Shown: piece after piece, positions 4,040 through 31,108 of the stretch | Layout of the letters: each line of letters begins with the position of its first letter | How positions within the stretch are numbered: position 1 is the stretch's first letter | Assembly: GCF_000374445.1 (NCBI RefSeq) | Contig: NZ_KB894424.1 | Coordinates: 62,001 to 126,000, forward strand | Length of the DNA stretch: 64,000 nucleotides | Reading direction: 5' to 3' | Source of the DNA: Actinokineospora enzanensis DSM 44649 | Lineage (GTDB): Bacteria > Actinomycetota > Actinomycetes > Mycobacteriales > Pseudonocardiaceae | Notes under the pieces: model-generated | Database searches by the model: none | What the model saw: only the letters and a program-made list of their open reading frames with translations | What the model was told of the DNA's origin: nothing | Position numbers and translations under genes: made by a program

Positions 4040-4695
4040 TGCGGGTCGCGATCGCCGGGGCGGGTGCCGTGGGCCGCTCCATCGCCGCCGAGCTGGTCGG
4101 CGGCGACCACCAGGTCATGCTGATCGAGCGGGACTCCCGCCAGTTCGAGCCGCACACCGTGGAGCAGGCCGAGTGGGTGCTGGCCGACGCCTGCGAGCTG
4201 GCCTCGCTGGAGGACGCCGGGCTGCAGCTGTGCGACTGCGTCATCGCCGCCACCGGCGATGACAAGGTCAACCTGGTGGTGTCGCTGCTGGCCAAGACCG
4301 TGTTCGCGGTGCGCCGGGTGGTGGCCAGGGTGAACGACCCGGCCAACGAGTGGCTGTTCACCGGCGCCTGGGGTGTGGACGTGGCGGTGTCGACGCCGCG
4401 GGTGCTGGCCGCCATGGTCGAGGAGGCGGTGAGCGTCGGCGGGCTGGTGCAGCTGCTGACGCTGCGGCAGGGCCAGGCGAACCTGGTGGAGATGACGCTG
4501 CCGGACGACACACCGTGGGCGGGGCGGCCGGTGCGCGAGGTGAAGCTGCCCCGGGACGCGGCGCTGGTGACGATCCTGCGCGGCGGCCGGGTGATCGTGC
4601 CGCAGCCGGACGACCCGCTGGAGCCCGGCGACGAGCTGCTCTTCGTGGCCTCGGCCGATGTGGAAGGCGAAATCCGCAACGCGCTCGGTCACTAG
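4039..4695 (+). CDS. ceoC: TrkA-type K+ uptake regulatory protein CeoC
   Basis: Second single-unit TrkA protein, 218 residues, with 'GAGAVGRSIA' at residues 6-15 for nucleotide binding, a short helix-strand RCK_N domain to about residue 135 and an RCK_C domain ('WAGRPVREVKLPRDA' onward). CeoB and CeoC probably form the equivalent of the two tandem RCK units joined in one chain in E. coli TrkA. The ATG overlaps the ceoB stop by one base. The last codon is CAC and the stop TAG (4693-4695) is the first part of a 168-bp palindromic repeat element, so the present stop may have been supplied by that element. Confidence 0.93.
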   Translation: MRVAIAGAGAVGRSIAAELVGGDHQVMLIERDSRQFEPHTVEQAEWVLADACELASLEDAGLQLCDCVIAATGDDKVNLVVSLLAKTVFAVRRVVARVNDPANEWLFTGAWGVDVAVSTPRVLAAMVEEAVSVGGLVQLLTLRQGQANLVEMTLPDDTPWAGRPVREVKLPRDAALVTILRGGRVIVPQPDDPLEPGDELLFVASADVEGEIRNALGH

Positions 4696-4859
4696 TGGTG
4701 CGACTCAGAACGTCGGCCGTGTATCGGCGGGTCCACGGCGTGGCCGGCGGTGCCGCCGGAACGGCCTCGTACTGGATGTACTTGGTCGTTTCCGGCGGTG
4801 CCGCCAGGCACGTCGTGGGCGGGTCGAGACATGGTCGACGTTCTGGGTCGCACCACTAG
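4692..4859. repeat. 168-bp palindromic (MITE-like) element, copy 1
   Basis: The element starts and ends with CTAG, and almost the whole length is one inverted repeat closing on a small loop 'tggat' between two 'gtac' arms. A second copy at 30941-31108 has the same length and differs at 6 positions, all transitions. In this copy one outer base pair is A-T where copy 2 has G-C, changed on both arms. No transposase is encoded. It could be a non-autonomous transposon remnant or a dispersed RNA hairpin acting as a 3' UTR or terminator. Open frames inside it are ignored. Confidence 0.9.
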
Positions 4860-30126: not shown

Positions 30127-30142
30127 ATCAACTGCACTTGAT
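30127..30142. promoter_or_regulatory. operator-like palindrome between toxin and antitoxin genes
   Basis: Arms 'atcaa' and 'ttgat' flank a central 'tgca' with one free base on each side; 14 of 16 bases are symmetrical. It overlaps the space just after the toxin stop and the antitoxin ribosome site, and 'tagtat' before it could be a -10. Binding by the XRE antitoxin is the obvious hypothesis. Confidence 0.55.
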
Positions 30143-30153
30143 GGGAGGTGGAC

Positions 30154-30537
30154 ATGCGCGACGAGCTGGACGACCTGCTGGGCATCGATACCGAGGACCC
30201 CACGCAGCGGCTGGCCCTGGAGCTGGTCAGGTCCGACCGGCAGCTGCTGGCCGGTCTGGTCGCCCACCGGCGCGCCCGGGGCCTGAGCCAGAGCGAGGTC
30301 GGCAGGCGCATGGGCGTCACCCAGCCCGCCGTGGCCGCGTTCGAACGAGCCGACGCCGACCCCAAGCTGTCCACGATCCGCCGCTACGCCCTCGCCGTGG
30401 GCGCGGACGTCCGCCACCTCGTGCGCGACCACGCCGCCACCCCGCCGCTGGTCGCCTCCGGCCCCACCGGCTCCCGCTCGCAGACCGCGCACACCACGGT
30501 CACCTCCCCCAGCGTCCTCCTGAAAGTCACCCGATGA
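30154..30537 (+). CDS. XRE-family antitoxin (HigA-like)
   Basis: A 127-residue DNA-binding protein. The helix-turn-helix covers about residues 45-95 ('RGLSQSEVGRRMGVTQPAVA', then 'FERADADPKLSTIRRYALAV'). The C-terminus is Ser/Thr/Pro-rich and probably disordered, the usual toxin-neutralising tail. ATG 30154 has 'gggagg' 5 bases upstream. It overlaps the next gene by 4 bases (ATGA). Confidence 0.82.
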   Translation: MRDELDDLLGIDTEDPTQRLALELVRSDRQLLAGLVAHRRARGLSQSEVGRRMGVTQPAVAAFERADADPKLSTIRRYALAVGADVRHLVRDHAATPPLVASGPTGSRSQTAHTTVTSPSVLLKVTR

Positions 30538-30944
30538 ACCTGACAGTCCTGCTGGCCGACTTCGCCCAGGGCGGCGACGGCGCCAAGGTCAACGCCCTGG
30601 GTCTGGGCTGGAGCCGGATCGGCACCCCGCTCGGCCTGCACTCGGTCCTGCTGGTCATCGACCTGGAACCGGCCGAGCTGGGCACTCCGCACCACATCGC
30701 CCTGGAACTGGTCGACGTCACCGGCCGCACGGTGATCGACCCGGCGGGCCAACGCATCGAGGCCAGCGCCGAGGTCCTGGTCCACCTCGACGAGGGCGCC
30801 ACCGTCCCCGGCGTCCAGATGATCACCGTCAACCTGACCCAGGGCCTCCCCCTCGACCCCGGCGTCTACGCCTGGGAAGCCCACTCCCCCAGCGCCCCCG
30901 GCGCGGTGTGGCGACGCCCGTTCGAGGTCTTCGCGGCCGCCTAG
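30534..30944 (+). CDS. DUF6941-like protein, third gene of the toxin-antitoxin operon
   Basis: A 136-residue beta-rich soluble protein starting 'MNLTVLLADFAQGGDGAKVN', with 'LLVIDLEPAELGTPHHIALE' and the closing 'VYAWEAHSPSAPGAVWRRP'. The pattern matches the DUF6941 family. Its start overlaps the antitoxin stop (ATGA), so the three are translated together. The stop TAG comes from the palindromic element that begins at 30941. The function is unknown; being inside the operon suggests a role in toxin control or in what the pair senses. Confidence 0.7.
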   Translation: MNLTVLLADFAQGGDGAKVNALGLGWSRIGTPLGLHSVLLVIDLEPAELGTPHHIALELVDVTGRTVIDPAGQRIEASAEVLVHLDEGATVPGVQMITVNLTQGLPLDPGVYAWEAHSPSAPGAVWRRPFEVFAAA

Positions 30945-31108
30945 TGGTGCGACCCGGAACGTCGGCCGTGTATCGGCGGGTCCACGGCGTGGCTGGCGGT
31001 GCCGCCGGGACGGCCTCGTACTGGATGTACTTGGTCGTTTCCGGCGGTGCCGTCAGGCACGTCGTGGGCGGGTCGAGACATGGTCGACGTTCCGGGTCGC
31101 ACCACTAG
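30941..31108. repeat. 168-bp palindromic (MITE-like) element, copy 2
   Basis: CTAG at both ends and perfect 24-bp terminal inverted repeats, with the rest an imperfect stem containing many G-T wobbles that would be G-U pairs in RNA. It is 162/168 identical to 4692-4859. As in copy 1, it directly follows the last sense codon of the gene before it. Confidence 0.92.

Follow-up and report, generated by a model that had tools for sequence, protein, structure and literature searches.

What kind of genetic element leaves two copies of a 168-bp hairpin within one stretch of an actinomycete genome, and what keeps it folded? In the window, by which we mean the whole 64,000-nucleotide stretch of Actinokineospora enzanensis DSM 44649 analysed here, the two copies lie at 4692-4859 and 30941-31108, as the original prediction had it, each with CTAG on both sides; both were recovered by BLAST and by a covariance model. 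The terminal inverted repeats of copy 1 occupy 4692-4715 (+) and 4836-4859 (-), with one of 24 positions off perfect DNA pairing (element position 14, a G.T wobble), and those of copy 2, at 30941-30964 (+) and 31085-31108 (-), form the predicted perfect 24-bp repeat, of the TAGTGGTGCGACCC type. On folding, the + strand of each copy, on which the fold includes G.U pairs, closes end to end on the 5-base loop that had been proposed, with the apical hairpin motif CGTACYGGRYGTACTYGG at 4768-4785 (+) in copy 1 and at 31017-31034 (+) in copy 2. The GTATCGGC side of a conserved internal motif is found in copy 2 at 30970-30977 (+), where an unpaired A at 30972 lies opposite an unpaired G at 31077. The description of the repeat as a full-length palindrome holds for the + strand, whose pairing is nearly complete, but as double-stranded DNA the palindrome is imperfect. 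All six differences between the copies are transitions (element positions 14, 16, 54, 69, 113 and 153) and fall as first described: 16/153 is a compensatory pair (A-T vs G-C), positions 14, 69 and 113 exchange a Watson-Crick pair and a G.U, and position 54 breaks a pair. The + strand folds at -151.7 kcal/mol in copy 2 and -145.7 kcal/mol in copy 1, none of 200 dinucleotide shuffles folds as well as the element (z about -15.8), and the - strand reaches -109.5 kcal/mol. On the - strand pairing is less complete, since most of the mismatches read as G.U on + and as A.C on -.

The two copies belong to a large family. In the draft host genome (8.1 Mb in 87 contigs), BLAST places the element at at least 40 sites (40 of 180 first-look candidates were scored); 31 of these share 94-100% identity over at least 165 bases, two are full-length at 81-83%, and the remaining places are shortened or gapped, several of them at contig ends. 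With a covariance model trained on 46 elements, including some of the host's own, the search gave at least 34 full-length matches at E<1e-32 (150 of 14778 candidates scored), together with five short forms of 78 bp (76 bp counted ends-to-ends) and a second set of hairpins at six places. The exact apical motif occurs 42 times in the genome and its reversed control not once. Chance is excluded because further copies exist, and with them in the host and in its relatives the objection that the pair might stand alone falls away.

Matches were found by BLAST in 13 of 16 genomes of the genus, the host included, the weakest of which (in G006) resembles coding sequence, and of the 74 genus loci located by BLAST, 53 carry the exact apical motif. 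The motif also marks hairpins in Streptomyces, Kitasatospora, Pseudonocardia and Kibdelosporangium. Searched across the class, a 21-base form of the motif turned up in 12 of 394 genomes, which belong to two genera, and its controls gave no match. Within the family, an 18-base form was present in 20 of 150 genomes, representing 11 of 46 genera, against one control match; inspection of 17 loci with this form identified 14 as hairpins, one of them truncated at a contig end, and three as chance matches in coding sequence. A wider contig collection holds at least 115 stretches with the motif, mostly from Streptomyces. Outside the genus, elements were gathered by the apical motif (116 sites, with inspection by eye covering those among the matches listed), so that the invariance of the motif there is by construction. 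Plasmid records gave no match to the host's own element, and a Streptomyces relative matched 29 of them. Virus contigs yielded 36 motif matches, of which three passed a threshold of 35 pairs around the apex; these resemble coding sequence and were rejected, and L171 (Rhodoferax) and L408-L410 were dismissed as chance motif matches.

Reduced forms of the element were seen as well. Short forms of about 76 bp in the host genome (L115, L116, L117, C2:11327 and C20:103776) have no apical part; what they retain is both ends together with a portion of the GTATCGG/GTCGAGAC region. In addition, near locus position 1001 of L118, L121, L122, L123 and L127, remnants of 19-25 bp such as CTAGTGGTGCGACCACTAG consist of both element ends adjoining, as would follow from deletion of most of the palindrome. 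A 14-base end allowing up to two mismatches was unspecific as a probe (424 and 355 control matches vs 83 and 107), and exact 14-base ends alone were followed, in part (L115-L127).

The family is a MITE, and it is mobile. The element is short, at 168 bp too short for a transposase, and is dispersed in many near-identical copies, with a target-site duplication and an empty site. The gene preceding copy 1 has matches in all 15 relatives from the genus, and the apical motif is absent up to 300 bases behind the orthologous gene in each of them; in four (L361, L362, L371 and L373) the gene ends in CACTAG with a single CTAG, which is the empty site. By eye, the element at L007 splits a short tandem repeat at CTAG. 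Among 103 elements with TA at both ends, 88 carry CTAG at both, 15 are off CTAG on one side and none on both, where TA at both ends was demanded by the script and some one-sided departures may be later mutations. A 4-bp duplication yields matching departures, and a duplication of TA flanking an element that runs from G to C yields one-sided ones. Because the departures are one-sided and never on both sides, a 4-bp CTAG duplication was dropped, and the duplicated sequence is probably the TA inside CTAG. Outside the elements, CTAG is found 20 times in the window vs 168 expected from base composition, about eight times rarer, and these 20 sites comprise six stop codons, 11 intergenic positions and three within genes. 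We also observed two insertion sequences, one of the IS5 type (L343, 670-1859) and one of the IS630 type (L312, 1367-2779), that abut a hairpin copy and have a CTAG in common with it; insertion sequences may also target the element's own CTAG ends.

The ends of the hairpins point to the enzymes that might move them. Five of 21 IS630-type loci in the genus carry CTAG-bounded terminal repeats (L312, L314, L316, L319 and L325), and another, L309, has other ends; of 30 IS5-type loci with DUF4096, nine have repeats, seven of them CTAG-bounded and mostly beginning TAGGNNNTGT, and L340 and L358 differ in their ends. The 370-aa protein of L325 matches NF033545 (IS630), and two overlapping frames of L332 match DUF4096, DDE_Tnp_1 and NF033580 (IS5). 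Over the terminal 22 bases, the hairpin L057 agrees with the IS630 element L325 at 21, the hairpin L051 with the IS5-type L332 of the same genome at 19, and the Streptomyces type L193 with L345 at 19. The search for a full-length transposon with the same ends thus gave close matches for these related hairpins (21/22 and 19/22); for the host's own 168-bp family the best match, taken with the family form of the end, is L318, an IS630-family element of another species, at 17/22, and an IS630 element with near-identical ends was not found in the host assembly. The end type of L113 and L047 likewise had no matching helper among the transposon ends compared (11/22). In ten of 11 hairpin end types, the opening bases of the end already pointed to the class of the best-matching transposon, a comparison that is partly circular. 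The 168-bp family, with its similar but not near-identical IS630-like ends and a probable TA duplication, can be classed as an IS630-type MITE; the IS5-ended hairpins cannot.

By end pattern, the 103 two-ended elements divide into 66 IS630-like and 37 IS5-like (30 and 0, respectively, in the host, 27 and 3 in the genus, and 9 and 34 in the wider contig collection). An end of the TAGTGCCGCGGC type matched 66 records of Streptomyces and Rhodococcus plasmids and, among the matches listed, lay under annotated IS630 transposase genes in eight of 40. The exact apical motif is absent from the transposon bodies; it occurs once in 51 transposon loci, in a hairpin copy beside the L343 transposon. In one genome (G012), the cores of L046 and L113 are identical in 105 of 111 alignment columns, and their left and right ends in only 61% and 53%, with gaps. 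The second set of hairpins in the host (L411-L416) has IS5-like ends beginning TAGGCGCTGTCC, some with one variant base, and the architecture of the 168-bp element; several lie near contig ends, and L414 and L415, whose flanks are the same, may represent a single copy. Between the two own types, local similarity scores 46, as compared with a maximum of 34 in 300 single-base shuffles. Taken at the level of sequence, these alignments indicate that related hairpin cores are combined with the terminal repeats of either of two transposon families, IS630 and IS5, which are unrelated to each other.

The fold itself is strongly asymmetric between strands. When the two arms were aligned from the apex at equal cost for every mismatch, favouring neither strand, 188 distinct elements gave 9732 Watson-Crick pairs, 1634 G.T, 229 A.C and 1275 other mismatches, with G.T exceeding A.C in 181 elements, A.C exceeding G.T in two and equality in five. 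This set comprises exact apical motifs with 130 bases on either side, free of N and with identical ones taken once; gaps (320) are excluded from the count, some alignments overrun the ends, and related elements are not independent. After gappy sequences were dropped (five of 84 and two of 107), G.T stood against A.C at 771 vs 26 in 79 aligned elements and at 128 vs 14 in 105 others. For the 79 aligned relatives, the consensus folds of the + and - strands score -94.0 and -24.6, respectively, and for the mixed 105 from other genera, in which only 15 apical pairs are recovered, -24.1 and -10.1. Nine elements taken from several genera fold 11 to 44 kcal/mol more stably on the + strand, which also folds better at the six places of the second own set; the exception is a diverged own copy, L417, in which the - strand is slightly better (-79.4 vs -73.5). 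This pattern of mismatches and folds argues that one strand of the hairpin, the + strand, is selected for folding.

Several local structures accompany this fold. A GUAC-YGGRY-GUAC apical hairpin and an A.G mismatch motif are both conserved. Hairpins of Streptomyces (L158, L165, L185, L189 and others) carry a small palindrome, GGGGGTCCCCCCGGCCGAAGGCTGGGGGAG or variants, nested in their arms at apparently recurring positions. In addition, many hairpins outside the genus show by eye a second conserved motif, GGATCCAGG-like opposite CCTGGGCC with a bulged A (the region of L394, L396, L397, L403 and L404, and also L232, L261 and L265).

A covariation test of the family fold, as had been suggested, found pairing kept above shuffled controls. 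In 46 elements, 98.2% of 3033 cells are paired (93.1 in shuffles and 34-40 in slid controls), 27 of 66 pairs have changed on both sides (11.2 in shuffles, 5-7 in slides), and the covariation score is 0.217 vs 0.122 in shuffles; none of 500 shuffles reached any of the three values, and the structure was derived from the same 46-element alignment, which is an advantage over the slid controls. To obtain the 46, the 79 were first thinned to 55, from which nine elements that are truncated or of a different build were then removed (L034, L049, L050, L051, L059, L060, L067, L099 and L102). Some of the two-sided exchanges are transversional, for example C-G to G-C at columns 22/154. The possibility that differences between copies break pairing as often as they keep it, on which the prediction could have foundered, did not materialise, as the changes mostly keep + strand pairs.

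The same tendency is seen among the 31 near-identical copies of the host. Eleven polymorphic sites turn a Watson-Crick pair into G.U (five by A>G and six by C>T), one of which, site 167, lies in the terminal CTAG, and at six sites, which belong to five pairs, a G>A or T>C change converts G.U to Watson-Crick. At four sites the Watson-Crick pair becomes A.C: two of these, 2 and 168, are part of the terminal CTAG, and the others are 54, changed in five copies, and 153, changed in one. Further pair breaks are two transversions (50 and 60) and the A.C of L018 at 56/113 and 68. Restored pairs are found in L001 (16/153), in L031 (23/146, with both changes private) and in L025, where a private change at 155 lies opposite the common T at 14. 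A strand-biased C-to-T mutation was ruled out as the source of the asymmetry, since G>A and T>C changes also land on G.U pairs.

The strand could be selected as RNA or as single-stranded DNA, for example in replication or transposition, where G.T would be tolerated and A.C not, and either form would give rise to the bias. DNA folding parameters still favour the + strand (-81.9 vs -63.9), and the short scars with adjoining ends suggest that the palindrome misbehaves as DNA. The tandem wobbles speak against this reading: 224 of 287 are of the type 5'-UG-3'/3'-GU-5', with 25 GU/UG and 38 GG/UU, an excess that is partly one inherited module (20 vs 13 and 14 distinct contexts) in a tally of 30 own copies (of the 31, L005 lacks a row). 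By nearest-neighbour rules, 5'-UG-3'/3'-GU-5' wobbles are favoured in RNA and less so in DNA. In addition, the transposases of IS630 and IS5 are DDE enzymes acting on double-stranded DNA, which also counts against a single-stranded DNA form. We thus regard single-stranded DNA as an unlikely explanation of the fold, and consider the selected molecule to be, with good probability, RNA.

A second alternative is that the hairpin is useful to the host at the 3' ends of genes, where it would terminate transcription or stabilise the mRNA of the preceding gene, and that the host keeps the fold. Both window copies lie on stop codons: the TAG of the upstream ORF (putative ceoC in the first reading) at 4693-4695 (+) is inside the left CTAG of copy 1, and that of the ORF at 30138-30944, at 30942-30944 (+), inside the left CTAG of copy 2. 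Across the family, the position of the copy coincides exactly with a TAG stop codon in 50 of 98 classified cases (the host contributing 18 of 32 and the genus 32 of 66), where the 98 leave aside L005, L032-L037, L039 and matches below 60 bits, and where neighbouring genes come from a simple, home-made codon-usage caller rather than from annotation. In favour of such a role, pairing is largely kept even in private changes, and copies placed sense to a close gene fold slightly better than antisense ones (mean + strand fold -150.2 vs -145.2 kcal/mol; 12 and 8 copies, from the same 30 own copies). However, CTAG is rare and often a stop codon (6 of 20 in the window), and the stop-codon position therefore largely follows from the target. 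Left genes read toward the + strand in 60 copies and right genes toward the - strand in 59, so that many copies, with no orientation bias to their neighbours, are probably read as the less stable - strand. Antisense copies are paired much like sense copies, with on average 0.5 (8 copies) and 0.33 (12 copies) unpaired + strand pairs, respectively, and the copy 1 site is shared by none of the 15 relatives. An orientation-dependent host function is unsupported by these counts, and there is no clear sign that selection for folding tracks the gene next to a copy. A host-serving 3'-end role seems to us rather doubtful. By eye, neither window copy is followed by the T run typical of an intrinsic terminator.

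That the hairpins are ordinary MITEs, whose asymmetry is a mutational bias or a frozen founder feature with no function, is very improbable: although the cores seem related by descent, so that mismatches are inherited and element counts are not independent, two-sided changes including transversions exceed those of the shuffled and slid controls, both A>G and C>T yield G.U among the host's young copies, the six G>A or T>C sites on G.U pairs keep pairing as one mutational bias would not, and the asymmetry recurs with unrelated ends.

The choice initially posed, between a MITE and a dispersed structured RNA, is thus best answered by both, as the element combines transposon-type ends with pairing conserved on one strand. 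From the copies, the ends, the target, the empty site, the two transposon-like end types, the covariation and the strand bias, we consider it likely that the hairpins constitute a satellite MITE superfamily around a structured RNA whose helper transposases have changed. Under this satellite model, the element would be a non-autonomous MITE moved in trans, most likely by an IS630-family (Tc1/mariner-type) transposase, and insertion at the TA inside CTAG would duplicate TA and often fall on a TAG stop codon, restoring the stop. The interior would be a conserved hairpin and not leftover transposon, its + strand kept folded by G.U and compensatory changes, and the core would have swapped helper transposases by exchanging terminal repeats between the IS630 and the IS5 (DUF4096) types; a new end gained on one side of the palindrome could be copied to the other. 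Read-through in the + direction from a neighbouring gene would give an RNA that folds, and we speculate that this RNA, with a putative protein recognising the apical and internal motifs, acts in the spread of the element or in its tolerance. The fold probably serves the element, and not the regulation of the gene in front of each copy, because its conservation shows no clear dependence on the adjacent gene and extends across different ends. A further-reaching version, in which the class extends over the actinomycetes and is defined by one structured RNA and not by a transposase, its ends being repeatedly replaced by whichever CTAG-targeting type is available and the + RNA being needed for spread, is a tentative suggestion.

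Among known systems, RUP of Streptococcus pneumoniae, a MITE of IS630-Spn1, is similar in being short and intergenic with a TA target and IS630-shared ends, but is 107 bp long with, in the part of the source drawn on here (PMC2229807), one proposed helper and no other signature of structure or function; the element described here has a conserved folded core and a second, unrelated end type. Correia/NEMIS of Neisseria is likewise a small mobile inverted repeat with a conserved core, whose RNA stem-loop is a proposed RNase III target, but it belongs to another host group and, compared by description from parts of the two sources, without a G.U strand bias or a change of helper (PMC2649163, PMC2229807). 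The bacterial stem-loop repeat families that include YPAL are similarly dispersed, predicted RNA stem-loops, and the main text of that survey, compared by description and in part, names neither Streptomyces nor 'transpos' (PMC2267715). REP elements, described in the part used of PMC3733652 as palindromes of 20-40 bp tagged GTAG or CGTC, were ruled out by the 168 bp and the CTAG ends. The IS630 and IS5 (DUF4096) insertion sequences of Actinokineospora and Streptomyces have similar terminal repeats and the CTAG target, but encode a transposase and have bodies without the exact apical motif. Rfam gave no match above the gathering score in the window, the best weak match being mir-598 in copy 2 (26.6 bits vs 69), and in eight relative loci a tRNA and nothing else. 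In open-licence PMC, the core sequence returned no papers and the MITE literature on Streptomyces and Actinokineospora, among the matches listed, no description of the element; the main text of PMC10969869 contains no word beginning Streptomyces or Actino.

MITEs are usually viewed as shrunken transposons that retain their ends, and here it is the ends that vary, while the interior fold is conserved and one strand appears to be selected. If true, the satellite model would offer a tractable case in the harmless Streptomyces for asking why a transposon satellite needs a folded strand, as well as for how satellites switch helpers, and it would add to Rfam 15 a family that is absent from it and present in several actinomycete genera.
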